A stretch of DNA of 64,000 bases from Agrobacterium vitis (lineage in GTDB: Bacteria; Pseudomonadota; Alphaproteobacteria; Rhizobiales; Rhizobiaceae). The stretch lies in the NCBI RefSeq assembly GCF_014926405.1, contig NZ_JACXXJ020000001.1:123328-187327 (forward strand), given 5' to 3'. The stretch's first letter is position 1, and each line of letters opens with the position of its first letter. The position numbers and the translations under genes were made by a program. This document shows, piece by piece, positions 3,643-22,504 of this stretch. The notes beneath the pieces are model-generated. The model made no database searches and had not been told where the DNA came from. It saw only the letters and a program-made list of their open reading frames with translations.

Positions 3643-4310
3643 TGTCGTGTTCCTTTTCCGGTTTGCTCGGGCCGCGCCCATCGCGTCCTCGATGACGGTG
3701 TTAAGACCGACGGCGATCGACGCCGCACCGCTGGCGGTCGGAACGAAGTGGAGGACGGCCGGGAGCGGCTTTCTTGGCCCGCGAGGAATGCGAACCTGTT
3801 CGCAGGGGAAGAAAGTTGCGTATGGCCGTTGCGGCCAAGGCGATCGAGACGAAGGCGTCCTTCGGTCACACCAGATCAATCGAGGTCTGCGTGGGTGTGG
3901 CCTGTCCGAACCGGATCGACCACGACATGCCGCGAGACCAATCGTTGAACTCACAACCAGCACGCCGCTGGCTCAATCGTTTTCGGCACCATGCTCACAC
4001 CACGTCACGGCTGCGGACCTGCAGTTCCCTTCGACGCCATCGCCGATGGGTGAGTCTGCATTACCGACCGTTCGACAGCAGAGCCATCTTCGACTGGATG
4101 GTGTCTCCTCCCAACCGGCAAGGGCCTCGGCTATGCTGCAATCCCCCTTGCCCTCAGCGCCCCACACCGCAACGGCTGGTCGGCATGGAACGTGTCCCCG
4201 CTTCAGGAACTGACTGGGCCGGCGTCTTTCACGGCAGAGTTCCACCATATGGTGGTGCCTCTTCCGCTCCAAATGGAGCGGATCCGTCACCGCAGCGCCA
4301 GAACTCTGCC
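3643..4310 (-). promoter_or_regulatory. Long noncoding leader of the interrupted DUF736 gene
   Basis: No gene is supported in these 668 bases. Close to the DUF736 start, the leader carries the 15-mer GCGATGGGCGCGGCC, which is identical in the ardC leader. It also has a block similar to the ardC leader over about 40 bases near 3722-3762 and a start-proximal stretch, CAAACCGGAAAAGGAA, shared with the leader at 7089. Near the left-gene stop there are two dyads, CACCATATGGTG (4243-4254) and CCGCTCC-AAAT-GGAGCGG (4264-4281). These lie just downstream of the PP-loop gene and may end its transcript, although no T-run follows. Confidence 0.4.
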
Positions 4311-5249
4311 CTAGACGCCACACATGCCTTCGCATTCGATTGGCCAGAGATCGAGTTGGCCATGATCGGCGGCCGTCGACAGGTCGGCTTCGTCAAGAGG
4401 AACACATGAGCGATGAAGATAAACTTCGCCACGGATGCGTCGAATGCCGGTCCGCAGTGCTCGATCGACTATCACCGCCTCTGCCCAGGCTTCCGGATCA
4501 TGATCACGCATGTGGCGCCAGCGTCCATTATCGTGAAACGGGCATCCGATGCAGGCCGATTTCGGGGGCGTCGGATAACCATGACGGCGCAACCAGGCCA
4601 GGCAATCGCGCCTGCTCATGCGCTGTTCGATCAACGGCCAGCGATTGATCTGCCAGTCCTCGAATGAGGGTTTGATCCGGCTGGCCTCGTCTGTCGAAAT
4701 ACCAATCCACTGCTCGGCGACCGCATGATCAGGTGATCGCTTGCGCGTGAGGCCCAACAATTCCCGGACCTTCCTCCGGATCGGCACGATCTTGTAATCC
4801 GCAGTGCAGGCCCTGCGCATCATGCCGATCGATACGGTCTCGCGCGATGTCGCGCGGGAACCGATCTGGACGAGTTCGCCGTCATCGTCCTCATCGAGAA
4901 CCGGTCGTGCGCTCCCGGCTGGCGCCACGGTTTTCGCAAAAGCCGGAATCGAAGCCCACCGTTTGCCGGCGGCGGCGTCCATGAGATTGTCGCGAATATT
5001 GCCGGCCGAGACGACATGGACCGGGAACGGAAGGACATTCGGCGACATCAACCATTCAAGATGATCGTAGACGGCTTTTGGCTCCCAACCAGTATCGGCG
5101 AAGATCGCGCAATCGGGCATCGGCCCGATCTCACCATGCGCTGCCATCAACGCCATGGTGGTGGACTGGACGCCGGCGCCGAGCGAAAGCGCCCGCAGCC
5201 GGATCGGGGAGGACGCGCCGTCCCCGGTAAAGTTCGGAACCAGTAGCAT
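4311..5249 (-). CDS. PP-loop / PAPS-reductase-family protein
   Basis: A 312-residue protein of the N-type ATP pyrophosphatase (PP-loop) superfamily, usually annotated as phosphoadenosine-phosphosulfate reductase-like. The PP-loop SLGAGVQS is at about residues 22-29. A cysteine-rich patch near the C-terminus (ACIGCPFHDNGRW) resembles the metal-binding part of DndC/IscS-partner-like members. The enzyme probably activates a substrate by adenylation; the substrate is unknown. Plasmid members often sit beside ArdC, as here. The start at 5249 is preferred because ATG overlaps the ardC stop as TGATG, which implies translational coupling. A longer frame to 5546 runs inside ardC and was not used. A nucleic-acid modification role in anti-restriction is possible but unproven. 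Confidence 0.7.
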   Translation of the reverse strand: MLLVPNFTGDGASSPIRLRALSLGAGVQSTTMALMAAHGEIGPMPDCAIFADTGWEPKAVYDHLEWLMSPNVLPFPVHVVSAGNIRDNLMDAAAGKRWASIPAFAKTVAPAGSARPVLDEDDDGELVQIGSRATSRETVSIGMMRRACTADYKIVPIRRKVRELLGLTRKRSPDHAVAEQWIGISTDEASRIKPSFEDWQINRWPLIEQRMSRRDCLAWLRRHGYPTPPKSACIGCPFHDNGRWRHMRDHDPEAWAEAVIVDRALRTGIRRIRGEVYLHRSCVPLDEADLSTAADHGQLDLWPIECEGMCGV

Positions 5250-6175
5250 CAGGCCGCCTCCTGTCCGGAAGCTGCCTGCGGCTGAAGGTCGTGCAGATAG
5301 GCGACAGCGCGCTGCGCATGCGCCGCCGCATTGAAGATCGCCCGCTTGTCGGATCCGAGGATTTCGGCCCAACTCTGGATATAGGCGGCATGATCCGGCC
5401 GAGGCTCCAGCTCCGGCACGATACCCAGATCGGCGCAGATCATCGCTGCCCCAAGCTCCACCAGCATCTCTTCGAACGCCCTTTCGCGGCGATCCTTGTG
5501 GTAGCGGCTCAGGTCCCTGTTTAGTCGGGCGGGACCGCCCGCCCAATGCAAGGTTTCGTGCGCTCTCGTCGCAACGAAAGAGGCCATGTCCCGGAATTGT
5601 TCGGGCCGCGGCAGCTGGATGTGGTCGGAGGCAGGAGAATAATAGGCCTTGTCGCCGCCGTAACGGACGACAGCGCCCGTGTTATCGAAGAAGCGATCGG
5701 CATGCTCGATACGCTCGAGCGGTTTCGCGATCGGTTCGGGGCGACTGTAATAATGATCTGCAAGGCCATCGATTTGATCACAATTGAAAACTGTATAGGC
5801 CTTCAGGAAGGGAATATCGCGCTCGACCTCTCCGCCGCGCGCATCGGGTTCGGTTTTGGTGAAGCGGCTGGCATAGACGACGGTCGCGCCGCTTTCGCCC
5901 TTGCGCACGTGAGCGCCGAGTTCGTTTGCCTGGCGCAGCGTCATCCATGTTGACGACATGAAACCACTGGCAACGCTCTCCGACCACAGAAGCAGAACAT
6001 TGAGGCCGGTGTAAGCTTGTCCGTTGTGACGAAGCGGCCGGCTCACCCGGCCCGATAGATTGGCCGCGCTCCACGGCTGCACCCATGGGCGTACGCCCTT
6101 TTCCAGATCGGCGACGATCCTGTCGGTGATGCGTGTATAGATATCGGTCCGCGTGTTTGCTGTTTTCCTGCTCAT
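5249..6175 (-). CDS. ardC: ArdC-like antirestriction protein (ssDNA-binding plus zincin)
   Basis: A protein of 308 residues with the N-terminal ArdC single-stranded-DNA-binding region (about residues 5-130, including YTRITDRIVADLEKG and PWVQPW) and a C-terminal zinc-metallopeptidase domain with HETLH at about 206-210. ArdC proteins protect incoming plasmid DNA from type I restriction during conjugation. ATG at 6175 is chosen over a TTG at 6181 because GGAGG (6187-6183 on this strand) sits eight bases upstream. That Shine-Dalgarno can pair with CCTCC at 6198-6194, inside a six-codon upstream reading frame (6208-6191), so translation may be controlled. The gene overlaps the downstream PP-loop gene. 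Confidence 0.88.
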   Translation of the reverse strand: MSRKTANTRTDIYTRITDRIVADLEKGVRPWVQPWSAANLSGRVSRPLRHNGQAYTGLNVLLLWSESVASGFMSSTWMTLRQANELGAHVRKGESGATVVYASRFTKTEPDARGGEVERDIPFLKAYTVFNCDQIDGLADHYYSRPEPIAKPLERIEHADRFFDNTGAVVRYGGDKAYYSPASDHIQLPRPEQFRDMASFVATRAHETLHWAGGPARLNRDLSRYHKDRRERAFEEMLVELGAAMICADLGIVPELEPRPDHAAYIQSWAEILGSDKRAIFNAAAHAQRAVAYLHDLQPQAASGQEAA

Positions 6176-6412
6176 TTCCAAACCTCCGTTTCAGGAGGCC
6201 GCGCCCATCGCGGCCCCGTCGCGGAGGGCCGAAAGCAGGAGCGATCGGGGCGAAGGCGCACCGGAACGGCCGGAACGCCAGTGAAGGACGGCGCAGCCGT
6301 TGCGGCTTGCCGCCGGATCCTGCAGGACCGACGAACGGGACGGGGCAGCGATGTCGCCCCGCGTCTCTTCCTCTTTCCTCTGTATTCCCATTGAGCTTTA
6401 CTCCAACGGCGA
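6176..6412 (-). promoter_or_regulatory. Structured leader of ardC
   Basis: A GC-rich leader on the leftward strand. Features seen: the purine-rich box AATGGGAATACAGAGGAAAG (about 6393-6374), shared in form with leaders at 11.9, 20.0 and 22.15 kb; GGGGC/GCCCC arms at 6342-6360; GGCCGCG-CCCAT-CGCGGCC at 6197-6215; and CCTCC-GTTTCA-GGAGG at 6183-6198, which would hide the ardC ribosome-binding site. A micro-ORF (ATG at 6208, stop at 6191, encoding M-G-A-A-S) starts in the loop of one hairpin and ends in the other. Transcription probably starts near 6390, because a terminator for the upstream gene lies just before it. Confidence 0.45.
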
Positions 6413-6445
6413 CACAAAAAATGGCCGCCTCGGAGTGAGGCGGCC
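6413..6445 (-). terminator. Rho-independent terminator
   Basis: On the leftward strand GGCCGCCT-CACTCCG-AGGCGGCC (6445-6423) is a perfect 8-bp stem with a 7-base loop, followed by ATTTTTT. It lies 43 bases after the stop of the gene at 6489 and ends that transcript before the ardC leader begins. Confidence 0.8.
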
Positions 6446-6488
6446 TCGTCCCGACGAAGGCGGAGCTGGATGCTCCGCCGGAGACGTC

Positions 6489-7088
6489 TCAGCCGAGAGC
6501 GTCCATCTGTGCTGCGGCGGCCTTGCGGTCGAGCGCCTGGCCGGGGTTGTCGACCGGCCGATCGAATGGCTTCCACGCTTCGCCGACAATCTGTTCGTAG
6601 GCTGCGACGGCGCCTTCAGCTGCCAGGCGGAGCGCGTGGGCCTGAATACCCATGTCGGCTGCGAACTCGCGCTTGCGCTGGGCGGCGCTGTCGTAACCGA
6701 CCGGGCCATCGAGATCCTCGTCGCGAGCGTCCGACGCACCCTTGGCGGTCGCATCGCGTGCTTCGGTGACGGCCTTGCTGTAGAACTGGCCAGCGCCATG
6801 GGCCGATCCGACATAGGCGCCGACGATGCGCTGGAGATGGATCTGCATCGCCCGTTCGCCGAGGCCATCGGAGAGGCCAGTCGCGGTTTCGACGATAAGG
6901 CGCTCGTGCATGTCGCGGATGCCGTCGCTGTCGAGGATGGCTGTTCCGAAGCTTTCGGCGATCCGGAGCGCCTGCGCTTCGTCGGGGCATGTCAGACGGA
7001 CCATTTCGAGGGTGGCGCCCTTGCGGAGCTGCACGATACGAGCGGCAGGGCGAGAAGCTTGACGGGAAGAGTTTGCGGGCTTTGCCAT
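6489..7088 (-). CDS. Conserved plasmid hypothetical protein
   Basis: A protein of 199 residues, not recognised as a named family. It is mainly helical and soluble, with no membrane segment. The N-terminus is basic (KPANSSRQASRPAARIVQLRKG) and the rest is rich in Ala, Asp and Glu. It is a single-gene transcript: its own leader lies upstream (7089 onwards) and a strong terminator lies 43 bases downstream. ATG at 7088 follows AAAGGAA by seven bases. It belongs to the same leftward backbone block as ardC and the ParB-like gene, which suggests a role in plasmid establishment or transfer, but nothing in the sequence defines it. Confidence 0.65.
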   Translation of the reverse strand: MAKPANSSRQASRPAARIVQLRKGATLEMVRLTCPDEAQALRIAESFGTAILDSDGIRDMHERLIVETATGLSDGLGERAMQIHLQRIVGAYVGSAHGAGQFYSKAVTEARDATAKGASDARDEDLDGPVGYDSAAQRKREFAADMGIQAHALRLAAEGAVAAYEQIVGEAWKPFDRPVDNPGQALDRKAAAAQMDALG

Positions 7089-7371: not shown

Positions 7372-7606
7372 CTGATCCCGGATGCCGAAGCCGAAAAGGA
7401 CGTCATGCAAAATGCGCGCCAGGCCCGCACCTGCAAGCTGGTCCTTCCCTGCTGACGCCACGGCTAACTCCGCGTCGTCAGAATGGATCGCCGATATGCC
7501 CGATGTGCCTGTCAGAACACCCTGATTTGCTTGCGCCGCCTTTCCACGATAGACGCGCATCTGGCGTTACGACCGACCAACAGTATTCGCGAAAGGAACA
7601 CCGCAG
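7372..7606. other. Intergenic region upstream of the PhnA-domain gene
   Basis: No supported gene in these bases. The rightward leader remnant leads to a 16-codon frame at 7403-7453 that ends in a stop. The remainder should hold the rightward promoter of the gene at 7607, but no clear -35/-10 pair was identified. Confidence 0.4.
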
Positions 7607-8141: not shown

Positions 8142-8446
8142 GGTATCGTCTCCTGCAATGCCGCAATCGCGGACTGCTGACGCATAAGCTTCCGCGTCAG
8201 AGCATCGATCTCTGGCTGGCGCTGCGCGGTGATCGCCGCAAGATTGGAGCGGTAGCGGGTGAGGAAGGCTTCGGGTTCAGGAGGCCTGCCGCGGCGATAT
8301 CCGTATTTGCGCCGTCCAAGCGATGGGATCAGCGCGGTCATCCTGCGAATGATCTGGCGGTCGATCATGTCGAGCTGATGCCGCGTCTGCCGGCACGCTT
8401 CTTCCATGCGCCGCAATTCCGCCTGTCGATCGATGGACCGGTTCAT
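8138..8446 (-). CDS. Coiled-coil conserved hypothetical
   Basis: A protein of 102 residues, highly helical and charged, with heptad-like spacing in two stretches (about 5-40 and 65-100) and a basic linker around RRKYGYRRGRPPEPE. Likely a coiled-coil dimer. No catalytic motif. The start at 8446 is chosen because its ATG overlaps the stop of the DUF7007 gene as ATGA; a start at 8467 would add seven residues. It is the third gene of the 9800-7932 operon. Confidence 0.6.
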   Translation of the reverse strand: MNRSIDRQAELRRMEEACRQTRHQLDMIDRQIIRRMTALIPSLGRRKYGYRRGRPPEPEAFLTRYRSNLAAITAQRQPEIDALTRKLMRQQSAIAALQETIP

Positions 8447-9330
8447 GCCGCCGTCCTCCCCGTCCATGAGGCAAAGCTTGATGGACCGTCGTAGGCTGCG
8501 TGGCGCGCTTCATCGATGATGAAGCCGAAACGACCTGCTTCGTATTCGGGTGACGGCACGAGAAATCGCCGTTCCTCGCCGCCATGATCGCGCCTGCCTG
8601 CGCGCGTGGCGATCACCTCGGTCATGCCTGGATGATGATCCGATCGAAGTGCCGAGATCACGATCCAGTCGCTGGCGTGCTCGAGCTCGAACGCGCGGCG
8701 ATCCTTCACATGAGATTCGCCGTGAGCAAGCACAGTCGCGAAAATCGCCTCCCACGCATCGGGCTCCCAGTTCTTTAGCGTCTCGCTGGCGCAACGCTTC
8801 TCGAAGCCGGTGAACAGTTCAGGGAAGGTGTGCGCCACGGCAGCCCAGGCGCAATCCTCCTCGTAGAACCCGTCGTCCGCCCGGAGCAGCGGATCGACAA
8901 TGCGGTTTCGGTCGGCCGAGAGCTTAAAGCCGCCGTGGCTTGCAGTGGAGTGGAATTCGATCCCCTCGGCATAGGTTGTCGAGTGCTGGGCCGAACCCCA
9001 TGGCGTATGCACATGGGGGGCGATATTTCGACGTCCGAGCGCCTGTTTTTCGCGCTGATGTTCGGCCTGTTCGAGGACGTGTGCACTAAAAGCCGCCTCA
9101 TCGGCGAGTTCGCCGCAATGACCGTAGAAGTCTCCCCGTCGCCACTCGGGAAGCGGACGTCCAATCTTCCAGCCGGTGGCCAGATAATGCCGCCCGGCCT
9201 GACCTGGCAGCATGGCAAAGGCGTGATCGCCGACGCGGGCGACGGGGAACCCTTCGCAGGACAGACCAAAGAAAACCCCCGGAAATCCGGGGGTGCAGTC
9301 GGGCATGTTCGTGTTGGGAAGATCGATCAT
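8443..9330 (-). CDS. DUF7007-type plasmid protein
   Basis: A protein of 295 residues. The central part (about 110-220), with VHTPWG, the STASHGGFKLS segment and FYEEDCAWAAVAHTFPELF, matches my memory of the DUF7007 domain found on alphaproteobacterial plasmids; its function is unknown. The conserved His, Gly and acidic residues would fit an enzyme, but none is proven. The gene is coupled at both ends by ATGA overlaps to its neighbours at 9327 and 8446. Confidence 0.65.
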   Translation of the reverse strand: MIDLPNTNMPDCTPGFPGVFFGLSCEGFPVARVGDHAFAMLPGQAGRHYLATGWKIGRPLPEWRRGDFYGHCGELADEAAFSAHVLEQAEHQREKQALGRRNIAPHVHTPWGSAQHSTTYAEGIEFHSTASHGGFKLSADRNRIVDPLLRADDGFYEEDCAWAAVAHTFPELFTGFEKRCASETLKNWEPDAWEAIFATVLAHGESHVKDRRAFELEHASDWIVISALRSDHHPGMTEVIATRAGRRDHGGEERRFLVPSPEYEAGRFGFIIDEARHAAYDGPSSFASWTGRTAA

Positions 9331-9800
9331 GCGGCAGCCCTCCCTTCCACAACATCGGCGGCGATCTCATCCGCCGTGACGTCCTCGAGAACGGCGAACG
9401 GATAGCCATGGGTGGTCAGCCATTCCTCGGCAGCCTGCCGGCTCGCCGCGAGATGGACGAGCTCGGCGCTGTCGCCAGGGCGGTCGAAGACACGGTAACT
9501 GCCGACCGCCGGACGTTCGACGATGGTGAACATCAGGCTGGTTTCCAGCGAAAATGTGCGGTGGACGCGGATCGCAATAACACCGCCGCTGCCATAGTCG
9601 CCTTCGTGGAGCGTGAAGCTGGGCGGCAGGCTGATGTTGCCGGCGCCGCGCTCGTCCTGCTTGCGTATCAGCCGGCCTCTGCTGTTGTTGGTCTTCCACG
9701 CGGAGAGCTTTTTGCGATGGCGCTCCGGCGGGCGCGGCTGGCCGTTGGACCACGCCAGAACGGTGCCGATCGGCGCCAGGAATGCGAGATGTGCGGACAT
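9327..9800 (-). CDS. Conserved plasmid hypothetical protein
   Basis: A protein of 157 residues. The N-terminal half is basic (about residues 20-50, rich in Arg/Lys), followed by a beta-rich part (EGDYGSGGVIAIRVHRTFSLET) and a C-terminal helical segment with DVTADEIAADVVEG. No family recognised. It opens the operon 9800-7932 and lies 96 bases after the ParB-like gene, so it is probably co-transcribed with it. The stop overlaps the start of the DUF7007 gene. Confidence 0.55.
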   Translation of the reverse strand: MSAHLAFLAPIGTVLAWSNGQPRPPERHRKKLSAWKTNNSRGRLIRKQDERGAGNISLPPSFTLHEGDYGSGGVIAIRVHRTFSLETSLMFTIVERPAVGSYRVFDRPGDSAELVHLAASRQAAEEWLTTHGYPFAVLEDVTADEIAADVVEGRAAA

Positions 9801-9896: not shown

Positions 9897-11657
9897 CTAC
9901 TCCGCGGCGATCCCGTAAGCATCCTGCTCTTCGTCAGGATCGACGGCTTCGGGAGCATCGTCGGCGCTGTCTGGAAGGTCGGCCTCGTCTTCGGGGGTGG
10001 CGAGGCCCTCTTCTCTATCAAGGTCGGACTCATCGACGTCTGCTTCTTCCGCGCTGTCGTCGGCATCGAGAACCTCGCCACTCTTGATGAGATCCACGAT
10101 GTCCTGCGGATCGGGCGCGAAGAGTGCGGTCGTGTGAACGAAGCGCTCTTGCCTGAAATGATCAACGAGAGCCGCACGAGTCTCCCGCACCTTCTGGCGA
10201 GCAAGCACGTTCGCCTCCTTCGCCGCTGCTTCCATCGCCTGGCGAGACAGGCACAGCAGAAAGTCCTCCGAGCCCATGTTCGGCAGGAAGTTGTCGGCGC
10301 CGATCGCGTGACCTGCGATCCTGGAGATCACCCCGCTGTTGGACATACCCCGCCGGCACGACAGCACATCGATCAGCATCGAACGCGCGGCCACGCGCAG
10401 TGTCTCCACGTCGAAGGCGAGCCTGCCGTCTTCGCCGATCAGCCGGGCGGCGTGGCGCTTGAAGCGCTTCGACCCGAACACGGTATCGGTCGCGCCGGAA
10501 TCCACGCGGACGTTCAGGCCGGCGAATGCAAGCACGAGCAGGGCCATCAGCATGTCGTCCTCGATCGGGGCGCGTCCAAGCGCCTCATGCAGGGCGTCGG
10601 TGCGGAAGTCGCCGATCATGTCCTGCCCCTTCTGGGTCACATCCGGGCGCGGCTTTGGCGTGTCGACGATTGCATCATCGGCTTCGGCTAGACCGCCCGC
10701 GGTCGCCGCGCCGCCTTTGCCCTTCTTCTTGTCCTCGGGCATGCGGAAGGCGACCGACTGCACCTTGCCGTCACGGTCGAGATACATGGCGACGTGGTCG
10801 GATTTCGAAGGCTTGCCGTAGACGCGTTCCGCCTTTTTGGGCAGCTCCGGCTGGCCCCAGTTGTTGACCTCGACGATCGACCCCTGCTTCGGAAGCGTCG
10901 TCGTCATCCATTCCTGCTGGGCGCCGAGAAACGCTTCCACGTTAGTGGTGTATCGGCTGTCCTGGTCAGCTGGTGCAAACAGATCCTCGACCCATTCGAT
11001 TCCGTAGGCGCTGGCAAGATCGTCGCCGAAGCTCGCATCCTTGGCAAACATGCGCGTCTTTGAAAGAGACCGGGAGATGTTGTACCAGTCCGCCCGCTCG
11101 GTCTTCTTGGCCTTGTTCGCCTTCCACACCTCCCTCTGCTCGTCGAGCGAAGCGGCCGCGATGGTGCGCAGCTGCTGCTCGTTGGGGATATCGCCGAGCG
11201 CCATATGGTCGAGCATGGCCGGCAGCACGTTGGCCAGAAGCCGAAGCTTCCTGATTTGCCGGACCGGCAGGGCGAGTGCGATACCGATCGCTTCCTCGGT
11301 CCAGCCGAGAGCGACGAGACGTTCGATGCCACGCCATTGGTCGACGGCGCCAAGAGGCTCTCTCGCGATATTTTCGACCATTGAGCGCATGGCGCCATTG
11401 TCGTTGGCAGCCTCGCGGACGATCACCTCGATTTCCTCAAGGCCAGCGGCGATGGCCTGCCGGACACGGCGATGGCCTGCTTGGATGATATAGCCGTTGC
11501 CGCCATCGGTTTCGGGTGAGACCACTGGAGGTTGGATAATGCCGACAGCCTTCACCGTAGCCAGCAGCAGTGCATCGGCTTGTGGGGACGATTTCGAGCG
11601 GCGCGCATCGTCGGGATTGTCCTTCAGCCCGCGGGGGTCGAGTTTAAGGATTTGCAT
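9897..11657 (-). CDS. ParB/RepB/Spo0J-family protein
   Basis: A protein of 586 residues, much longer than partition ParB proteins (about 300). The N-terminal ParB/Srx-like nuclease-fold domain has the GHRR box at 61-64. A helix-turn-helix segment follows at about 119-142 (TEEAIGIALALPVRQIRKL). The C-terminal 250 residues are acidic at the end. In plasmid leading regions, proteins of this kind accompany ArdC and methyltransferases and are not true partition proteins; no parA or parS-like array is next to it here. The role in DNA binding or cleavage is inferred. It has a 260-base structured leader upstream and probably drives the four genes downstream as well. Confidence 0.8.
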   Translation of the reverse strand: MQILKLDPRGLKDNPDDARRSKSSPQADALLLATVKAVGIIQPPVVSPETDGGNGYIIQAGHRRVRQAIAAGLEEIEVIVREAANDNGAMRSMVENIAREPLGAVDQWRGIERLVALGWTEEAIGIALALPVRQIRKLRLLANVLPAMLDHMALGDIPNEQQLRTIAAASLDEQREVWKANKAKKTERADWYNISRSLSKTRMFAKDASFGDDLASAYGIEWVEDLFAPADQDSRYTTNVEAFLGAQQEWMTTTLPKQGSIVEVNNWGQPELPKKAERVYGKPSKSDHVAMYLDRDGKVQSVAFRMPEDKKKGKGGAATAGGLAEADDAIVDTPKPRPDVTQKGQDMIGDFRTDALHEALGRAPIEDDMLMALLVLAFAGLNVRVDSGATDTVFGSKRFKRHAARLIGEDGRLAFDVETLRVAARSMLIDVLSCRRGMSNSGVISRIAGHAIGADNFLPNMGSEDFLLCLSRQAMEAAAKEANVLARQKVRETRAALVDHFRQERFVHTTALFAPDPQDIVDLIKSGEVLDADDSAEEADVDESDLDREEGLATPEDEADLPDSADDAPEAVDPDEEQDAYGIAAE

Positions 11658-13558: not shown

Positions 13559-16500
13559 TTACGCCGCCATTGGCGGTGCCGCGCCCTCAACATCCGCGGC
13601 CAGTGAAGCCTCCACCTCCGCAAGCTGCAAGCGTTTCTCGGCCAGCTCGCCGGCGAAGGCAAAGTCGCCGCCATCGTCGCGCGTCTGGTATGACGCGAGC
13701 CTGCGGCGGGCGTCAGCAAGGCGCTGGCGATTGCGCTCGCGTTCACCCTCGAAATCATCAAGCGCGTGCTCGAGGCGGGAGACGGCACCGAGCGGCGTGA
13801 CCGTCACGGGCAGATCGATCTCGAAATCCGCGCCGGTGCGCATCAGCATGGTGGTGTAGCGATAATTGTCATGGCCGAAGCGTTCGCCGCGATATTCCAA
13901 ATCGAAGCCGCCGATCGACGCGATCACCGTCTCGTCGTCCTGCTGGAGTTGTACCTGGGTCAGGATCTCCTTCATCAAGGCACGACCGGCCTCCTTGCGC
14001 TCGGCATAGACCTTGCCCATGACCGTCATCGAGAAGGCGGCGCCAGCGGTCGAAAGCAGACGCTCGATATCCTGGCCAACCTCTGCGATCCGCCGCGTGG
14101 CATACTCGATATCGCGTTCGGCGTCGCGAAGCTGGCGGCGAACGGCGTGCTGGTCGTCAATGTGTGCCGCGCGCAGGCGTTCCAGCCGCGCGATGTCGGC
14201 CTCCAACCCCGCCTTCTGCATCAGGCGCTGGTCGCCCGAGGCGATCGCCTTGGCCATGGCGAACTGGTTCGCCTGCCCCTCGCCGAGATCTTCGAGACGC
14301 CGGATGGAGGTATCACCGGAAAGGGCCGCCGCGATGAACCGGGCCTTGCGCTCATTATTCTGCCACATCGTGGCATCGAGGCTGCCTTCGGTGGCGTAGG
14401 CGAAGATATCGACCTCGTCATGCTGGTTGCCCTGGCGCACGATGCGGCCCTCGCGCTGCTCGATCTGGGAAGGGAGCCAGGGCACGTCGAGATGATGGAG
14501 TGCCTTTAGCCGCAGTTGCGCATTGACGCCGGTCCCCATCGTCTCCGACGAGCCGATCAGGAACCGGACCCTGCCTGCCCGGACGTCGCCAAACAGCCGC
14601 TGCTTCGCCTCCGATTTCTTGAAGTCCTGCATGAAGGCGATCTCCGATGCCGGCACGCCTAAGCGGATCAGTTCGTCACGAATCCAGCGATAGGCGGAAA
14701 AGCCTCTGGTCTTCTCGACGCTGATGGTGCCCAGATCGGAAAAGATCATCTGCGCAGCACCTGGCAGTTCGAACGGCTTGCCATCATGGCGGAGATAGGT
14801 GCTGCCCTCGGTCGCCTTCCAGATATTGAAGGCATTCGAGATGAGACTGTTGAGCTTGTTGTCCGCCTCATTGTCATTGTCGGCATCCACGAGGCGCAGG
14901 TCGATCGCCGCATGCCGGCCATCGGTGATGACGGAAAGCAGGATGTCGTCGCCGGGTTCGGGCGGCCGGTCGCGCTCCTCGATCGCCTTGATGCGCTCGG
15001 CCAGCACCATCTGGTAGTGCTTGAACGCCTGTGTTGGCTTCGACGTGACGATCTGGCGCCTGCCGGTCGAGACCGCCGGCACCTTTACATACTCGCGCAA
15101 GTCCGCCGGCATCACGACATCCGCGAAGCTGCGGAACATCGCGATCAGTTCTGGCACGTTGACGAAGCTCGCGAAGCGGGAGACCGGCTTGTACTTGCCG
15201 GAAGGCTGAAGCTCCAGCTCGGTGGTGGTGTCGCCGAAGGTTGACGCCCAGGCGTCGAACTCGTGCAGGCCGCGCTCCATCAGCGCCGGGTGGCCCATCA
15301 ACCGCTGGACAGAGAACATTTCGCCGAGCGTATTTGTGATCGGCGTGCCCGAAGCGAGGACAAGCGCCCGGCCGGGATTGATCGTCTCGATGAAACGGGA
15401 TTTCACATAGAGATCCCAGGCCCGCTGCGAGCCGTTCGGATCGACGCCCTTCAACGTCGACATATTGGTTGCGAAGCTGAGCTTTCTGAACTCCTGCGCC
15501 TCGTCGACGATGATCTGGTCGACGCCGATCTCGGCGATGGTGAGGAGATCGTCCTTGCGGGTGGAAAGCGCTTCGAGCCGCTCCTGCAGCCCTTCCTTCA
15601 GGCGCTCGAGGCGCTTGCGAGAGACGCGGTCCTCATCCTCGACCTTTAGGAGTAGGGTTTCGTAGAGCTCCAGTTCGTCGTGGATCATCTGTTGTTCAAA
15701 CACCGCCGGCACACCGATGAACCTGAAGGCGGAATGCGTGATGATGATCGCATCCCAGGTTGCCGTCGCCGCGCGCGACAGGAACCGGGCGCGCTTGTCC
15801 TTCGAAAAATTTGTCTCGTCCGCAACGAGGATGCGAGCCGTGGGATAGAGCGCCAGGAACTCGCGCGCGGCCTGCGCAAGGCAATGCCCCGGCACGACCT
15901 GCATCGCCTTGGCGACCAGGCCGAGACGCCGCTGCTCCATGATGCTTGCTGCCATCGTCATGGTCTTGCCGGCGCCGACGGCATGGGCGAGATAGGTCGA
16001 GCCGGCCGAGATGATCCTCCAGATCCCGCGTTTCTGATGCCCGTAGAGAACAAAGGCGCCTGAGGCGCCTGGAAGTTTGAGATGATCGCCGTTGAACTTT
16101 CGCGGCGCGATGTTGTTGAAGCGGTCGTTATAGACGCGTGCCAGCCGGTCGGTGCGATCGGGATCGGACCATATCCAGCGCTGGAAGGCCTGCTTGATCT
16201 TGTGAAGCTTTTCCTTGGCCGCTTCGGTATCGACGACGTTGAGAACCCGCTTTTCGCTGTCGCCGTCCCTGATCGTATCGAAGATCTGCGGCACCCGGCT
16301 GTTCAGGGCATCGGACAGCAGTTCGCCGGCATGGCGGCGGTCCGTTCCCCATTCGGATGTTCCGGCGGCGAGGTAGGAAAGCTGGCGGGCCTCGACGGTC
16401 CATGACGCCAGTTCGGGCATGTGATGGATCCGGATATCGGTTCCCATCGTCTCCTTGACGAAGGCGACGACATCTCCAGCCGGTATCCACGGAGCGCCGA

Positions 16501-18649
16501 GGCGCGCGGTGATGTCCGACGGGCGCAGATCGACCGGCTGGACGGCAGTGAGCGCCGAGACGTTGCGCTCATAGGCGGGCTCGAGCGCGGCCGCAGCTTC
16601 CGCGACCTTGAGCTTCTCGCGGACATGACCGGACAGATAGGCGTCGGCCATCTGCCAGGACCCGTCGGCGGGGTCGCGGAAGATCGCGCTGCCAAGCTCA
16701 GTGACGACGTCTTCGGGATTACGGTGCAGAAGTTCCGCGATATGGTCGAGATCGACGTGCCCACTTTCGTTGAGCACCACGGCGAGCGCATCCGCCGCAC
16801 TGGTGATCACCGGCGGCGCGGGCGGCGAGATGACACGGTCGGTGAAGATCGGCCCGGGCCTTGCCGTATCGTTTTCGAGGTCATAGTCCTCGATCGAGGC
16901 GACCAGCCAGCAATCGGGATCGTCTGCGAACGGCTGGAGATTAGGCCGGCGATGGCTCTCGCGCGTCTCGCCTGTCTCCGGATCCTCGTTGATCGAGACC
17001 GTGGTGTGGTTGATCGGGCCGAAGTCGCGCACGAAGCTCGACCAGGCAATGCGCAGCTTGACCTGCAGATCCTTCCAGGGTTGATCCAGCTCCTGGGCCT
17101 TCAGCACCTGACGTACCGCGTCACGGACCGGGATCAGCTTCCTGATGATCCGGACGTGCTTCTCCGGGATACCGTCCGCGCTGCGGCCCTTTCGGACCGT
17201 AATAGTGACCGGCTGGCCATCGATCACCTGCATGAGGCCTCGGGCGTTGTCGAAGAAGAAGCTGCCTTCGCGGACATGCTGGCCGGACGGAAGATCGGCA
17301 GGAATATCTTCGGTCGCGCCCTCAAGATCGAGATCGATCGCGGTGGGCTCGCCGTCATAGCGGCCTTCCGGAAGAAGATGGACGGCGGCCGACAGCGCCG
17401 CGGCGAGATCCTCGCTGTCACGCGGAAGGCATGTATAGGTCTCGCCGAAAGGACCGGCGGTCAACGCGTGGGTACCGAGCACGAATTCCGGATGCTGGGC
17501 GAACCACCTGTTGACACGTATGGCGCCCTCATCCTCCGTGGCGGGCCGGATTTCGTCCGTGTCGAGCCAAGAAAGATCGCCCTCGGGCTCGGCGACCTTG
17601 CGTTTACGGAAGAAGAGGATGTCCACGACGACGTCGGTTCCCGCGTCGGCCCGGAAGCTGCCTTCCGGCAGGCGGATGGCGGCAATCAGGTCCGCCGTCT
17701 TGGCAATATGCTCGCGCGCCGAGGAATCCGCCTTGTCCATCGTGCCGGAGCTGGTAACAAAGGCTGCGAAAGCCCCGGGCTTCAACAGGTCGATCGACCG
17801 GGCAATGAAATAGTCGTGCAATCGCAGCCCGAGCGAGCGATAGGCGCGGTCGGAACGGACGGTCCGGTCCGAGAAAGGCGGATTGCCGATGGCAAGGTCA
17901 AAGCTCGCCGGCAACTCCGTGCGCGCAAAATCTCCGGTGAGGATCCGCGCTCGCGGCTGCAAAAGCCGTACGATGCGTGCCGTTACGGGATCGAGCTCGA
18001 CGCCGGTGACGTGCGACAGATCACGAAGCGCTTCCGGCATCAGCGCCGGAAACAGGCCCGTGCCGATCCCCGGCTCCAGCACCCGGCCGCCGCGCCATCC
18101 GAGACGCTGAAGGCCAGACCAGATCGCCCGGACGATGAACTCCGGGGTGAAATGGGCATACTGGGTGCAGCGGGCAAGCGAGGCATAGTCGGTCTCGCCG
18201 ACCGCATCCTCGAGATCGGAACCGATCTCGTCCCAGCCCTTGCGGAATTCGGGCTCGCCCGGACGGCGGAAGACGCCGTTGGCAAGATCGGACGCACCGA
18301 AGCCGGTGAAGCGGATCAGCGTCTCCTGTTCCTCGCGCGTCGCAGGACGTTCGCCCGCCTCGATCTCGGCCGCGAGCCGGATCGCGGCAATATTGTCGCG
18401 CGCACGGTCCTTCCAGCTGCGGGCGAGACCACGGTCATCGGCGAGATGGAAGTTCAGACCACGGGCACGGCCCGCCGGGGACGACGGCCGCACGACCGCG
18501 GCGATCGGCAAGGCCGGCGCTGGAGTGGTAGGATCGGGATCGTCGTCGGGCTCGAAGTCGCTGCCGAAGGCCGTCACGCCCAGGCCAAGGCTGGACGAAA
18601 GCGCGGTGTTGCCGAAAAGATCGATGGTGAAGGGATCGTCATGTGACAT
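13559..18649 (-). CDS. Giant plasmid methylase-helicase fusion protein
   Basis: A protein of 1,696 residues. An N-terminal N6-adenine methyltransferase domain has the SAM motif LEPGIGTG (191-198) and the catalytic NPPF (256-259). A superfamily 2 helicase core follows: Walker A HAVGAGKT near residue 888, a DEAQ box (VDEAQEF) near 1048 and the last motif with REGRIVRQG around 1410. The C-terminus is coiled-coil rich. This is the large protein found on many alphaproteobacterial conjugative plasmids near ArdC and DUF genes. It probably methylates and remodels plasmid DNA after entry, protecting it from restriction; this is inference. A DUF3085 gene precedes it by 127 bases and may share its transcript. 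Confidence 0.88.
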   Translation of the reverse strand: MSHDDPFTIDLFGNTALSSSLGLGVTAFGSDFEPDDDPDPTTPAPALPIAAVVRPSSPAGRARGLNFHLADDRGLARSWKDRARDNIAAIRLAAEIEAGERPATREEQETLIRFTGFGASDLANGVFRRPGEPEFRKGWDEIGSDLEDAVGETDYASLARCTQYAHFTPEFIVRAIWSGLQRLGWRGGRVLEPGIGTGLFPALMPEALRDLSHVTGVELDPVTARIVRLLQPRARILTGDFARTELPASFDLAIGNPPFSDRTVRSDRAYRSLGLRLHDYFIARSIDLLKPGAFAAFVTSSGTMDKADSSAREHIAKTADLIAAIRLPEGSFRADAGTDVVVDILFFRKRKVAEPEGDLSWLDTDEIRPATEDEGAIRVNRWFAQHPEFVLGTHALTAGPFGETYTCLPRDSEDLAAALSAAVHLLPEGRYDGEPTAIDLDLEGATEDIPADLPSGQHVREGSFFFDNARGLMQVIDGQPVTITVRKGRSADGIPEKHVRIIRKLIPVRDAVRQVLKAQELDQPWKDLQVKLRIAWSSFVRDFGPINHTTVSINEDPETGETRESHRRPNLQPFADDPDCWLVASIEDYDLENDTARPGPIFTDRVISPPAPPVITSAADALAVVLNESGHVDLDHIAELLHRNPEDVVTELGSAIFRDPADGSWQMADAYLSGHVREKLKVAEAAAALEPAYERNVSALTAVQPVDLRPSDITARLGAPWIPAGDVVAFVKETMGTDIRIHHMPELASWTVEARQLSYLAAGTSEWGTDRRHAGELLSDALNSRVPQIFDTIRDGDSEKRVLNVVDTEAAKEKLHKIKQAFQRWIWSDPDRTDRLARVYNDRFNNIAPRKFNGDHLKLPGASGAFVLYGHQKRGIWRIISAGSTYLAHAVGAGKTMTMAASIMEQRRLGLVAKAMQVVPGHCLAQAAREFLALYPTARILVADETNFSKDKRARFLSRAATATWDAIIITHSAFRFIGVPAVFEQQMIHDELELYETLLLKVEDEDRVSRKRLERLKEGLQERLEALSTRKDDLLTIAEIGVDQIIVDEAQEFRKLSFATNMSTLKGVDPNGSQRAWDLYVKSRFIETINPGRALVLASGTPITNTLGEMFSVQRLMGHPALMERGLHEFDAWASTFGDTTTELELQPSGKYKPVSRFASFVNVPELIAMFRSFADVVMPADLREYVKVPAVSTGRRQIVTSKPTQAFKHYQMVLAERIKAIEERDRPPEPGDDILLSVITDGRHAAIDLRLVDADNDNEADNKLNSLISNAFNIWKATEGSTYLRHDGKPFELPGAAQMIFSDLGTISVEKTRGFSAYRWIRDELIRLGVPASEIAFMQDFKKSEAKQRLFGDVRAGRVRFLIGSSETMGTGVNAQLRLKALHHLDVPWLPSQIEQREGRIVRQGNQHDEVDIFAYATEGSLDATMWQNNERKARFIAAALSGDTSIRRLEDLGEGQANQFAMAKAIASGDQRLMQKAGLEADIARLERLRAAHIDDQHAVRRQLRDAERDIEYATRRIAEVGQDIERLLSTAGAAFSMTVMGKVYAERKEAGRALMKEILTQVQLQQDDETVIASIGGFDLEYRGERFGHDNYRYTTMLMRTGADFEIDLPVTVTPLGAVSRLEHALDDFEGERERNRQRLADARRRLASYQTRDDGGDFAFAGELAEKRLQLAEVEASLAADVEGAAPPMAA

Positions 18650-18776: not shown

Positions 18777-19178
18777 CTAGTCTCGCGCGATCACGGTGAG
18801 TTGCATCGAATCCCCGTGGAAGGCGATCCTCAGATGCGTGCAGGCTGGGCTGGCAGCGATCAGCTTCACGAGCATGGCACCGTCGAGAAACTCGACCCCG
18901 TCATCGCCGCCGAAATGCTGGCGCTTGTAGTGCCAGTAGTCGGGGTTCGACTTCGGATCGCACTCTTCGGCATAGACGACAAACGGACGTTGCCCTTCGG
19001 CGAGCTTGCCGTTGGACATGAGGTACACGCTCTCGTCGCCGACCAGCCAAAGACCGGGCTTCTCATCGCGGCCCGGAAACATACCGTAGTGGGGATTGCG
19101 GAAGCCGCCGTTGAGGTGCGCGTCGAGGCGTCCGCGCATCATGACGACGTGGATGTCCGTCACGGAAAAGGTGAACAT
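18777..19178 (-). CDS. DUF3085 protein
   Basis: A protein of 133 residues. The segment GLWLVGDESVYLMSNGK, then VVYAEECDP and FGGDDGVEFL, is typical of DUF3085, a plasmid-borne family of unknown function. The starting ATG follows GGAGGCGG, and the stop of the DUF1419 gene lies 11 bases upstream, so the two are one operon. Small, acidic, soluble protein. Confidence 0.75.
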   Translation of the reverse strand: MFTFSVTDIHVVMMRGRLDAHLNGGFRNPHYGMFPGRDEKPGLWLVGDESVYLMSNGKLAEGQRPFVVYAEECDPKSNPDYWHYKRQHFGGDDGVEFLDGAMLVKLIAASPACTHLRIAFHGDSMQLTVIARD

Positions 19179-19189: not shown

Positions 19190-19792
19190 TTACGCCGCTA
19201 TCGCGTCAGGGAGGTAGCGCAGATGCACCGGCAGCTTCGATGCGATCTGCGCATCCGTGAGGTCGTCGAGCAGCTTCAGGACGGTACCCTGGCGTCCGCC
19301 GTAAAACAGCACGGTCCGCTTGCCGCGGTTGTGTTCCGGCCAGCGCTCGCCGGCATAGCCCCGATAGTCATCATGGGTGCTCGACCAGATGTGGTCCAGG
19401 CGTTCCTCGCGCGTCATCGCCCGAACGGGCCGGGTTTCGCGCTCGATGATCGCATCGCGCATCCGTTCGGGCGAACCCTTGTCAGCGAGGTCGCAATAGG
19501 CATGGAAATACCGCATCCGGTCATCGATCTTCAGCGTGAAAAAGATGCTGGTGATGCTGTCGGTGAGGAACTCGCGCATGGCGAACATATCGCCCCGCAT
19601 GAACAGCGGCGGCGGGATCTCGAACATGTAATCGTGCTGCGCCTGGGCGACTTCGAACCATTCGCCTCGATAAAGTGCGTTATCGTCACCCTCCCAGCGG
19701 TTCAGGCGTTGCGCGTGGCGGTCGAACAAGCGGAACATCTGCCGGCGGTCGGCAATGCCTTCAAAGACTTTACGTATTGGAGAGACGGTCAT
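19190..19792 (-). CDS. DUF1419 protein
   Basis: A protein of 200 residues of the DUF1419 family (RRQMFRLFDRHAQRLNRWEGDD..., EWFEVAQAQHDYMFEIPPPLF, MTREERLDHIWSSTHDDYRGYAGERW). The function is unknown; the family occurs on conjugative plasmids of Rhizobiales and related orders. It is first in the likely operon DUF1419-DUF3085-methylase/helicase, and it has a strongly structured leader upstream. ATG at 19792 is preceded by AAAGGAG. Confidence 0.78.
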   Translation of the reverse strand: MTVSPIRKVFEGIADRRQMFRLFDRHAQRLNRWEGDDNALYRGEWFEVAQAQHDYMFEIPPPLFMRGDMFAMREFLTDSITSIFFTLKIDDRMRYFHAYCDLADKGSPERMRDAIIERETRPVRAMTREERLDHIWSSTHDDYRGYAGERWPEHNRGKRTVLFYGGRQGTVLKLLDDLTDAQIASKLPVHLRYLPDAIAA

Positions 19793-20010: not shown

Positions 20011-20171
20011 CTCAATCTGACCCAAGCCGTCAGCTTATAGACTGTTAAGATTGCATATTGGATCATGCCATAGGCTGATCTTTTTATATTGATTATCAGT
20101 TCACAAGCTTATAAAGACAGCGTCACAATCAGCCTGCTGCCTGATGGGTAGCGTCGGTGGAAAGTTGAACG
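20011..20171. promoter_or_regulatory. Divergent promoter region for DUF1419 and mobile mystery A
   Basis: A/T-rich from about 20036 to 20116, unlike the GC-rich flanks, with TTTTTATATTGATTATC and TTATAAAG in the rightward direction. It is the likely site of both divergent promoters. Exact -35/-10 boxes could not be fixed. Confidence 0.4.
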
Positions 20172-20633: not shown

Positions 20634-21226
20634 CGGACCTTTTCCAGGAACCAGAGGACGCAACACCGCTTGAGCCGCAGGAGCGCGAGGGCCTGCTTCA
20701 AAGCTGGATCACCCACAGGCAGGATCTCAACGAGGCTGAACAGGAAAATATCGTCGAGGGCGCAGCCTGGGCTCGCGGACGACGGCGCATGCCGGTCGGC
20801 AGGATGCTGACCGAAGACTTTATGCGCACATTGCACCGACGCATGTTCGGCGAGGTCTGGCAATGGGCAGGCAGCTTCCGAACGACGGAGCGCAATATCG
20901 GCATCCAGGCCTACCGAATTCCGGTCGAACTCACGGCGCGGCTCGATGACGTGCGGTATTGGGTCGAGCATGAGACCTTCGAAGCCGACGAGATCGCAAT
21001 ACGTTTCCACCATCGCCTGGTCGCCATCCATCCGTTTCCGAACGGCAATGGACGTCACGCTCGGCTTGCCGCCGATCTGCTCGTGGAAAAACTGGGCGCC
21101 GAGTCCTTTAGCTGGGGTAGCGGAAGCCTGGGCGACGTGGGAGATCTGCGCACGCGATACGTCGCGGCACTGCAAGCCGCGGATAATCACGACATCGCGC
21201 CTCTCCTCGAATTCGCGCGCAGCTGA
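20630..21226 (+). CDS. Mobile mystery protein B (Fic-domain protein)
   Basis: A protein of 198 residues with the complete Fic motif HPFPNGNGRHAR at residues 134-145, so AMP-transferase (or related nucleotidyl-transfer) chemistry is expected. The N-terminal part includes WITHRQDLNEAEQENI, typical of the mobile mystery B family. An inhibitory S/TxxxE(G/N) helix is not evident within the protein, so control probably comes from the partner A. Its last 40 bases overlap, tail to tail, with the Toprim gene on the other strand (21187-21226), so the two transcripts converge. Confidence 0.88.
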   Translation: MTDLFQEPEDATPLEPQEREGLLQSWITHRQDLNEAEQENIVEGAAWARGRRRMPVGRMLTEDFMRTLHRRMFGEVWQWAGSFRTTERNIGIQAYRIPVELTARLDDVRYWVEHETFEADEIAIRFHHRLVAIHPFPNGNGRHARLAADLLVEKLGAESFSWGSGSLGDVGDLRTRYVAALQAADNHDIAPLLEFARS

Positions 21227-22110
21227 GCGCAAAGGTCCTCGTTCCAATCCTCGTGGTGGGGGCGATGGCGCTCAAACCCGCAGTGGGCGTCCCGGGCAAT
21301 TGCTTCCAATCGATCAGCGTAGACATTGCCTTGCGCGTTATTGTCCGTGGCGGCGACCACCGACATACCCTTCCGCGCCGCCAATAAACGGATCGCCGCA
21401 TCGGTGGCAGGGGCCCAGCCGCCGCCGGTACTGACATAGAGGCTATCGCGCCGATTACTCTCCAGCGCGGCAAGGCTCATGGCGTCGATGGCAGCCTCCG
21501 TCACGCAAAGGCGCGGCGCATGGATCGCGCCGAACCTGAACAAGACTTTCGCCCCGCCGGTCGAAAAGCCGCGCCATTCCGGCCCGCGCTCCTCCCAGCC
21601 GGTGACGGCGCCCTCGCTGTCACGGTGCGCGGCCCACATACTGCCGCGCGGACCTTCGCGCACGAGATCATACCGGATCGCTGCGCGGATGGTTGCTTCA
21701 GGAACGCAGCGTTCTTCGCAGAGATAGCGCCAGGTCATCGAGCCCGGCCACGGCTTGCGGCGCTTCGTCCATCGTTCCGAAACGCTGGGCGGCGGCTCGA
21801 TCTCGCGTGCAGCGTGGGTCCAGACCGGCTCCTTCGGGACGAAGCCGACCAGCGAGGCTACATGGTAGAGGGCTTCGACAAAGGGCACTTGGTCGAGATG
21901 CTCGACAAGACCGAACACGTCACCCTTGGCGTCGGACAGCGGATCGAACCAGCCTCTGCCCTCGTGAATCACGATGATTATGGCCCCGCCGCCGCGGTAT
22001 TTGACCGCCCTGCGGGTGCTCTCCTTCAGGTCGATGGCAAACCCAGCCTTCTCCAGCACGGCAGCGCATTGCACCCGATCCCGGAGGTCTTCCAGTTCCT
22101 TCTTTTCCAT
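21187..22110 (-). CDS. DUF3991/Toprim-domain protein (primase-like)
   Basis: A protein of 307 residues. The N-terminus (about 1-70) has AAVLEKAGFAIDLKES and a KYRGGGAIIIVIHEGRGWFDP stretch of the DUF3991 type, followed by DVFGLVEHL. A Toprim-like core begins near 195 with CVTEAAIDAMSL (E as catalytic acid) and continues with the STGGGW and ATDNNAQG segments. Such proteins are thought to make primers on transferred single-stranded plasmid DNA. ATG at 22110 is chosen because a longer frame to 22311 runs through the structured leader. The 3' end overlaps the converging Fic gene by 40 bases. Confidence 0.78.
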   Translation of the reverse strand: MEKKELEDLRDRVQCAAVLEKAGFAIDLKESTRRAVKYRGGGAIIIVIHEGRGWFDPLSDAKGDVFGLVEHLDQVPFVEALYHVASLVGFVPKEPVWTHAAREIEPPPSVSERWTKRRKPWPGSMTWRYLCEERCVPEATIRAAIRYDLVREGPRGSMWAAHRDSEGAVTGWEERGPEWRGFSTGGAKVLFRFGAIHAPRLCVTEAAIDAMSLAALESNRRDSLYVSTGGGWAPATDAAIRLLAARKGMSVVAATDNNAQGNVYADRLEAIARDAHCGFERHRPHHEDWNEDLCAQLRANSRRGAMS

Positions 22111-22322
22111 TTTTCTTCCCGACGCGCATTGCGTCCGTCCTTCTTTCTGTTTCCATTTCCCCGCACCCGGCGGAGCCCTCTCCGGACGCCGCGAAGAGCA
22201 AAGGAGGCAAGGGCGCGGCTGGCAAGATGACAATCTGCACCTTGGGCCACCGCCCGGGTGCCAGCAGCGGCGAAGCTTCCCTTGCCGCCTGCGGCTCGCA
22301 AGCGGCACCAAAAAGGCGAGAA
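22111..22322 (-). promoter_or_regulatory. Structured leader of the Toprim gene
   Basis: Nested perfect stems: GGCAAGGG (22206-22213) with CCCTTGCC (22279-22286), enclosing GCTGGCA (22218-22224) with TGCCAGC (22259-22265), enclosing GGGC/GCCC near 22245-22255. Nearer the gene are GACGC-GCATT-GCGTC (22121-22135) and a purine-rich box GGAAATGGAAACAGAAAGAAGG (part at about 22157-22138). It shares its architecture with the leaders of ardC, the ParB-like gene and DUF1419. Confidence 0.5.
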
Positions 22323-22339
22323 GGGTCTCAATGAGACCC
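22323..22339 (-). terminator. Possible terminator or attenuator after the 58-residue gene
   Basis: Leftward GGGTCTC-ATT-GAGACCC is a perfect 7-bp hairpin overlapping the stop codon of the 58-residue gene; a TTTTT run follows after about ten bases. Weak as a terminator, but well placed between that gene and the Toprim leader. Confidence 0.4.
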
Positions 22340-22504
22340 GCCCGGAACGTATTCGTGCACGATCTCCAGATCGTCTTCGTCGTCGAGTTCGTCGCTCGGC
22401 AGAACGCCGAACTCGTTACCGGACCTAAAGAGCGTGACCGGGACCATCAGGGTGCGGGCGAGCTGGAATGCGTGGTTCTGGGCGAGGGAAAGATCTTGCT
22501 TCAT
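22328..22504 (-). CDS. Small acidic conserved plasmid protein (58 residues)
   Basis: A protein of 58 residues, MKQDLSLAQNHAFQLART then LMVPVTLFRSGNEFGVLP and a strongly acidic tail with DELDDEDDLEIVHEY. It resembles small plasmid proteins I have seen next to the same backbone genes, function unknown. ATG at 22504 is preferred over starts further upstream because the extra 101 codons would be compositionally unlike a protein and would run through an inverted-repeat leader. GGAG precedes it. A DNA-mimic or ligand role for the acidic tail is speculation. Confidence 0.6.
   Translation of the reverse strand: MKQDLSLAQNHAFQLARTLMVPVTLFRSGNEFGVLPSDELDDEDDLEIVHEYVPGGSH

Follow-up and report, generated by a model that had tools for sequence, protein, structure and literature searches.

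The closest described counterparts of the elements reported here are Frpo1 and Frpo2 of plasmid F, which have homologues in ColIb-P9. These elements lie in the leading region, use the transferred strand (T-strand) as template and form a large stem-loop on it, and the same region of F holds antirestriction, psiB, ssb and ParB-like genes. On IncN plasmids (pKM101/R46), related sequences known as CUP elements are repeated upstream of several leading-region operons. To our knowledge, single-strand promoters have been established mainly on enterobacterial plasmids. Single-strand promoter function has been shown experimentally for F Frpo, according to the available sections of PMC9849209. The anti-defence islands that Samuel et al. 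2024 (PMC11541004) describe in leading regions resemble the locus studied here in their clustered anti-restriction genes, leading-side position and transcription of the T-strand; the main text of that paper makes no mention of MOBQ, rhizobia, Agrobacterium or ArdC, and states that Frpo elements were sought by similarity to known ones, with an additional search for -35, -10 and UP elements in four islands. In literature searches limited to open-licence PubMed Central papers, none of the titles and opening lines of abstracts listed report such leaders in rhizobia or agrobacteria. Here we describe a 64,000-nucleotide stretch of Agrobacterium vitis (the window), in which a leftward gene block between 22.5 and 3.6 kb carries highly structured leaders. 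We favor, at slightly better than even confidence, the interpretation that these leaders are Frpo-like single-stranded DNA promoters of a new sequence family.

The block is the backbone of a Ti/Ri-type plasmid and constitutes the leading region of a conjugative plasmid of that type, with a TraA relaxase (MOBQ). The window covers bases 123328-187327 of the 187-kb contig C1, in a 6.4-Mb genome of seven contigs. Its stretch from 3.4 to 23.7 kb matches 567 plasmid records, 349 of them from Agrobacterium or Rhizobium and 406 typed as conjugative, and 84 records cover at least 80% of its length; pTiC58 matches with 93.9% over 86%. The gene order Toprim, DUF1419, helicase, ParB-like, ArdC and DUF736, followed by traG-D-C, the origin of transfer (oriT) and traA, is found again, apart from absent or additional genes, in pTiC58 and in four further plasmids of Rhizobiales. 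In a fifth further plasmid the block is present, with no tra genes within the range viewed.

At the nick sites of MobA/TraA-type relaxases the hairpin precedes the nick on its 5' side, and CCCT forms the 5' end of the transferred strand. In pTiC58 the nick is located between traC and traA at CGTCGC-loop-GCGACG-TATAATTGCG/CCCTTGG (slash, nick), on the strand running toward traC and the block, with traG-D-C between nick and block. In this genome the + strand carries the same nick sequence at C1:113828-113848, some 9.5 kb to the left of the window, where it is adjoined by a relaxase domain (C1:113009-113689, - strand). Its orientation indicates that the T-strand is the + strand and that the block would enter 13-32 kb after the nick; the leftward genes of the block therefore have the T-strand as template. 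In both plasmids the block is on the side of the T-strand 5' end at the nick, in agreement with the original prediction of a leading-region unit, and use of the T-strand as template is the geometry that a single-stranded DNA promoter requires.

We located seven GC-rich leaders (fraction of G and C 0.62-0.67) with many inverted repeats in the window, where at least five had been predicted. They are 200-300 nt long, and one stands at the start of each main transcription unit (Table 1). DNA folding energies favor the T-strand in all seven, by margins of 1.4 to 19.3 kcal/mol; the values, T-strand first, are -69.5 versus -60.7 kcal/mol for the DUF736 leader, -109.6 versus -90.3 kcal/mol for the leader of the gene for a 199-aa protein (hyp199) and -66.4 versus -62.4 kcal/mol for the leader of a 58-aa gene (sm). 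The arms of the hyp199 hairpin are 29 nt long, 93% complementary and 198 nt apart, and the long stem of the DUF1419 leader is formed by GTCAAGGG..CCCTTGAC. A core module is common to the DUF736 and ArdC leaders, and is found at 6268-6291 (G000:C1:129595-129618) in the latter.

We collected leaders from the loci of methylase-helicase relatives (the best 80 of 511, each with at most 10 kb of flanking sequence), from plasmid loci and from loci of the same genome. The sources are nearly all Rhizobiales, with a few other Alphaproteobacteria, and the non-redundant sets contain 80 of 84 DUF1419, 76 of 81 Toprim, 76 of 83 ParB, 53 of 57 ArdC, 35 of 42 DUF736, 56 of 62 hyp199 and 66 of 69 sm leaders. 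All contain long runs of columns conserved in more than 85% of rows. In nhmmer searches the ArdC model matches 35 DUF736 leaders and the DUF736 model 31 ArdC leaders, the Toprim model matches 18 DUF1419 and 4 ArdC leaders, and the ParB model matches 4 hyp199 leaders. The leaders can thus be read as one extended family, although some pairs are not linked: the relatedness proposed originally holds for ArdC-DUF736, Toprim-DUF1419, Toprim-ArdC and ParB-hyp199, but does not extend to every pair.

The secondary structure of the leaders is conserved as well. For folding, rows with more than 30% gaps were dropped, leaving 80 DUF1419, 76 Toprim, 74 ParB, 52 ArdC, 35 DUF736, 56 hyp199 and 65 sm rows. 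In six families the degree of structure far exceeds that of column-shuffled alignments, with alifold z-scores (at most 40 rows per family, 30 column shuffles) on the messenger RNA (mRNA) strand and T-strand, respectively, of -7.4 and -6.1 for DUF1419, -8.7 and -12.0 for Toprim, -9.6 and -13.0 for ParB, -10.8 and -9.2 for ArdC, -9.7 and -15.0 for DUF736 and -10.1 and -12.9 for hyp199. In each of the six, 12 to 26 pairs show double compensation in two rows or more. The DUF736 leader was also aligned a second time, on the T-strand and with 25 of the 35 rows; this alignment has 63 pairs, 20 of which show two-sided changes, and 96.6% of its cells are paired, compared with 37-47% for slid partners; none of 500 shuffles reaches the observed value in four of five measures, and 95 of 500 do so in the fifth. 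On the T-strand, three pairs of this structure are G.T in most rows (22, 15 and 17 of 25), corresponding to A.C on the mRNA; the structure was derived on the T-strand and hence leans toward it. By both approaches, the aligned relatives display the strong covariation anticipated for functional leaders in the original prediction.

Nine loci carry a nick, and eight of them have leaders (L021 has none). Measured from the nick, all 37 leader places in these eight fall 3.4-27 kb into the leading side, and all have the T-strand as template. Each place is represented by its best nhmmer match (E < 1e-8), into which weaker matches were merged, some of them reverse-strand echoes of a near-palindromic hairpin. 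The nine loci cover mainly the leading side, a sampling limit that is removed by a whole-genome census of the core module. At the family level the census yields 33 sites in 21 of 121 genomes, with no match to a reversed control pattern; at the order level a slightly looser form finds 28 sites, spread over 14 of 297 genomes, and so adds 20 sites, with one control match. Twelve of the 53 distinct sites share a contig with an exact nick match, the other 41 being beyond judgement, and in all 12 the module is antiparallel to the T-strand of the nearest nick. Eleven of these are 4.9-17.4 kb into the leading side; the twelfth is 155 kb from the nick on a 164-kb contig, or 8.9 kb if the contig is circular. 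The census sites share ancestry and so are not independent trials. Some of the 30 module loci viewed have no recognised block gene behind the module.

The T-strand is as well suited to the fold as the mRNA strand, or better, by a margin that is clear in some leaders only. Among the relatives, folding with DNA parameters favors the T-strand in 71 of 76 ParB, 45 of 53 ArdC, 33 of 35 DUF736, 55 of 56 hyp199 and 60 of 66 sm leaders, and in 78 of 84 regions upstream of the helicase gene, compared with 39 of 82 for a control within the helicase coding sequence. In all eight regions tested the T-strand is more stable than dinucleotide shuffles. When these shuffles are used to correct the strand bias for composition (up to 36 rows per region), a T-strand bias is retained by the DUF1419 (t -6.3), ParB (-7.2), hyp199 (-6.3) and sm (-5.1) leaders, and is not clear for Toprim (-1.3), ArdC (-1.2), DUF736 (-1.0) or the helicase upstream region (-0.6).

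As a second measure of strand preference, we compared wobbles among pairs common to the structures of both strands, as observed over expected counts of G-U on the mRNA and of A-C, the latter equivalent to G.T on the T-strand. The G-U and A-C ratios are 0.77 and 0.80 for DUF1419 (z -0.5), 0.71 and 0.72 for Toprim (z 0.3), 0.60 and 0.76 for ParB (z -0.1), 0.66 and 0.65 for ArdC (z -1.7), 0.34 and 0.55 for DUF736 (z -0.5), 0.44 and 0.73 for hyp199 (z -3.3) and 0.52 and 0.62 for sm (z -3.6). In no family is G-U on the mRNA strand clearly preferred (z +0.3 at most). As a control, Frpo of F together with eight homologues gives 0.78 and 0.91 (z -1.8), and the T-strand is the more stable in nine of nine; the small RNA (sRNA) ar15 gives 0.48 and 0.10 (z +1.7) over 12 rows, a motif having served to orient 12 of 30 sequences. 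The wobble direction of the leaders is that of Frpo and unlike that of RNA, clearly so for single families only in hyp199 and sm. Uncorrected wobble counts overstate the strand bias in ParB and DUF736, and a sign test over pairs (118 versus 174, p 0.0012) assumes independence among related sequences and among pairs, and is indicative only.

The sequence shows leading-side position, use of the T-strand as template, conservation, covariation and a T-strand fold at least equal to the mRNA-strand fold, and the leaders most likely act as promoters on the incoming single strand. In the recipient, each leader would fold into a large stem-loop that provides a double-stranded landing site for the host RNA polymerase. 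Transcription would start at the leaders, and the DUF736, ArdC, ParB-like, DUF1419 and Toprim genes, with those behind them, would be expressed early, before the complementary strand exists, presumably so that protective anti-restriction genes are on before the second strand is made. A broader proposal, to which we give a little less than an even chance, is that the leaders form a separate and widespread promoter family, without recognisable relation to Frpo, which controls as many as seven operons in the leading regions of Ti, Ri and symbiotic plasmids throughout the Rhizobiales; it would be built as GC-rich T-strand stem-loops, some of them after a purine tract, and would run a timed anti-restriction program during plasmid establishment.

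A number of observations weigh against promoters of this kind, and the first group concerns the strand data. Raw DNA energies give no clear strand preference for DUF1419 (43 of 80) or Toprim (32 of 76), the composition-corrected T-strand bias remains in only four of the eight regions, and the wobble bias is individually clear in only two of the seven families (hyp199 and sm). The Frpo and ar15 wobble controls are each less than 2 z from zero. The uncorrected shared pairs of ArdC include slightly more G-U than A-C (114 versus 91), as would be expected if the leaders were structured 5' untranslated RNAs (riboregulators, attenuators or protein-binding elements) made from double-stranded promoters upstream. 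The strong structure of the mRNA strand (z -7.4 to -10.8) is also consistent with such RNAs. However, corrected G-U is not clearly better tolerated than A-C in any family, which is opposite to ar15; the T-strand fold is the more stable in five leader families; no Rfam family matches the leaders; and there is no excess of sigma70-like sites upstream, in a scan run without ordinary promoters as a positive control. We consider structured mRNA leaders a decidedly unlikely explanation.

Transcription of the opposite strand into conserved, structured antisense RNAs would reproduce the same wobble pattern, given that such RNAs would carry the T-strand sequence. In the available part of PMC3738593, the Ti plasmid is credited with 47 candidate non-coding RNAs, and antisense RNAs make up 78 of the 90 found on the two C58 plasmids. 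This explanation must nevertheless hold for seven separate leaders, and that part of PMC3738593 places none of its candidates at them; we regard it as the least probable of the readings considered.

A second group of adverse observations concerns position and sequence. In a co-oriented gene array every intergenic region is upstream of some gene, so that position is no proof of a promoter. The leader models have no significant sequence similarity to F Frpo (E 0.79 and 3.4 for the two best matches of the ArdC model), and no -35 or -10 element was identified in the leaders, by a scan that also misses Frpo. A 19,988-bp contig (G006:C3), which has no nick match, carries modules in both orientations. 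Finally, the core module of R388 (IncW) lies on its own T-strand, opposite in orientation to the rhizobial sites. The R388 hairpin, about 83 nt long, has the module alone and is on the leading side of the R388 nick motif. The reversed R388 module is what one might see if the inverted repeats served double-stranded DNA, as cruciforms or binding sites of a plasmid regulator, independently of transfer. The fixed orientation at all 12 informative sites and the strand-asymmetric wobbles in some leaders argue against such a role, which we judge very improbable.

The chief rival to single-strand promoters is that the hairpins are priming sites that load a primase or prime the complementary strand on the T-strand, with the genes expressed from ordinary promoters; the block's own Toprim gene is a possible partner. 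Priming sites would have the same position, the same T-strand preference and several spaced copies, and Frpo itself has reportedly been described, in the title of a 1997 article by Masai and Arai, as both a promoter and a source of primer RNA. A leader at each main transcription unit, ending near the start codon, exceeds what priming needs, but this is a weak objection given the co-orientation of the genes. We consider priming sites unlikely, though to be taken seriously.

The search for promoter signals does not separate these possibilities. No sigma70-like site was found on the - strand between 3.5 and 23 kb in a scan that also misses Frpo, and in the relatives neither the leaders nor the 160 nt upstream of them show an excess of such sites, except for the hyp199 leaders (7 of 56). 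F Frpo itself scores no better than shuffles, and because this control goes undetected the scan is undecisive for or against promoters. Start-site data for pTiC58 have been published (PMC10469942). A purine-rich box had been predicted as a module shared by the leaders. This did not stand: AATGGRAAN{2,8}GRAAAG occurs without mismatch once in the window, within a purine-rich stretch of the ArdC leader (6373-6392), and was rejected as a shared motif. Three of the six aligned families instead share a tract rich in purines, located 11-40 nt upstream of their hairpins, with purine fractions of 0.86-0.92 for DUF1419 (75 of 80 rows anchored) and 0.72-0.93 for ParB (58 of 76) and weaker values of 0.59-0.75 for ArdC (13 of 53). 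No tract was seen upstream of the Toprim (34 of 76 anchored), DUF736 (22 of 35) or hyp199 (35 of 56) hairpins. A density of 31 purines in 35 nt is reached in the window only at about 19967-20014, compared with a mean of 0.05 tracts in 20 first-order Markov copies.

The leaders resemble F Frpo in the direction of their strand preference, both in stability and in wobbles. They differ in being GC-rich with no -35/-10 identified, in host lineage and in relaxase, which is MOBQ in the rhizobial plasmids. By analogy, they may be classed as working like Frpo while falling outside the Frpo sequence family. The two best matches of the ArdC model in F (1-68 kb) fall on the two putative Frpo sites, in the same orientation but at E-values short of significance, and with the DUF736 and ParB models other places in F score best; homology to Frpo is accordingly a lead only. 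R46 has no significant match to any leader model.

If the leaders are single-strand promoters, then the principle arose, or diverged beyond recognition, in crown-gall and nitrogen-fixation plasmids, and whole families can escape similarity searches with known Frpo sequences. The survival of such plasmids under restriction in a new host could then be tested directly, and the DUF736, DUF1419, DUF3085, 199-aa and 58-aa proteins would become candidate establishment factors. The strand-asymmetry test (G.T on the T-strand versus G.U on the mRNA) is applicable to any leading region.

Table 1. Leaders and genes of the block, in window coordinates unless another replicon is named, with the matches in F and R388.
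Feature	Position	Strand	Remarks
Truncated DUF736 gene	3571..3642	-	~24 codons, starting with ATG at 3642; reference, the full-length pTiC58 DUF736
DUF736-type leader	3643-3904	-	Giant stem-loop; nhmmer E 1.7e-60; T-strand = + strand
ArdC antirestriction protein	5249..6175	-	ArdcN + MPTase-PolyVal (Pfam); start codon 6175
ArdC leader	6176-6448	-	nhmmer E 3.5e-55; DUF736 model also matches, E 6.9e-7
Intrinsic-terminator-like hairpin	6423..6445	-	Between 199-aa gene and ArdC leader
Conserved 199-aa protein (hyp199)	6489..7088	-	No family matched
hyp199 leader	7089-7400	-	Hairpin most stable of the seven
YjdM/PhnA	7607-7912	+	Exception to leftward direction
DUF7007 protein	8443..9330	-	
Conserved protein	9327..9800	-	Downstream of ParB-like gene
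ParB-like protein	9897..11657	-	NF010406/PRK13832
ParB-type leader	11658-11920	-	nhmmer E 3.9e-66; purine-rich tract at upstream edge
Alcohol dehydrogenase	12038-13021	-	Between ParB leader and methylase-helicase
DarB-like antirestriction methylase-helicase	13559..18649	-	1696 aa; PHROG 10089, 1634 bits; Pfam
DUF3085 protein	18777..19178	-	
DUF1419 protein	19190..19792	-	
DUF1419 leader	19793-20014	-	nhmmer E 4.2e-52; purine tract ~19967-20014
Mobile mystery proteins A/B	20172-21226	+	Antitoxin-like helix-turn-helix and Fic-like protein; inside block
Toprim/DUF3991 protein	21187..22110	-	Start at 22110
Toprim leader	22111-22327	-	nhmmer E 4.1e-56; match 22110-22383 extends into 58-aa gene
Conserved 58-aa protein (sm)	22328..22504	-	Homologue of pTiC58 ATU_RS26610
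sm leader	about 22505-22760	-	Boundaries approximate
ArdC-model matches in F (L103)	8296-8364, 13685-13730		At putative Frpo sites
R388 (IncW) hairpin (L144)	25438-25520		~83 nt, with ArdC/DUF736 core module; E 2.2e-9

The gene content agrees for the most part with what had been predicted. Anti-defence content is supported by family matches for ArdC (Pfam) and the DarB-like protein (PHROG 10089), as expected of an anti-defence unit, and the ParB-like protein has 27% identity over 175 aa (E 7e-7) to that of the F leading region. The leftward direction holds for the Toprim/DUF3991, DUF1419, DUF3085, methylase-helicase, ParB-like and ArdC genes but not for YjdM/PhnA or mobile mystery A/B, and the sequence upstream of the latter has no match to any leader model. 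DUF736, also named as a member of the block, is represented by a complete-looking leader, whereas the gene itself is a remnant; a tyrosine recombinase gene is located nearby (2101-3276), and relatives carry intact DUF736 copies. Intrinsic-terminator-like sites show no clear excess over shuffles (17 versus 14.8). The alcohol dehydrogenase looks like cargo; it is not annotated at this place in pTiC58 and is named in some of the best-matching plasmids.

The 621-kb replicon of the same genome (C4), in which no relaxase or nick match was found, has Toprim, DUF1419 and ParB homologues with leader-type upstream regions (L022, G000:C4:20000-36000) and a core-module site at G000:C4:13240. Adjoining the block is a gene for the ar15 (AbcR-clan) sRNA at 23736-23846 on the + strand (106.8 bits), one of five ar15 matches in the genome, another of which, on C3, has a nick site about 9 kb away.

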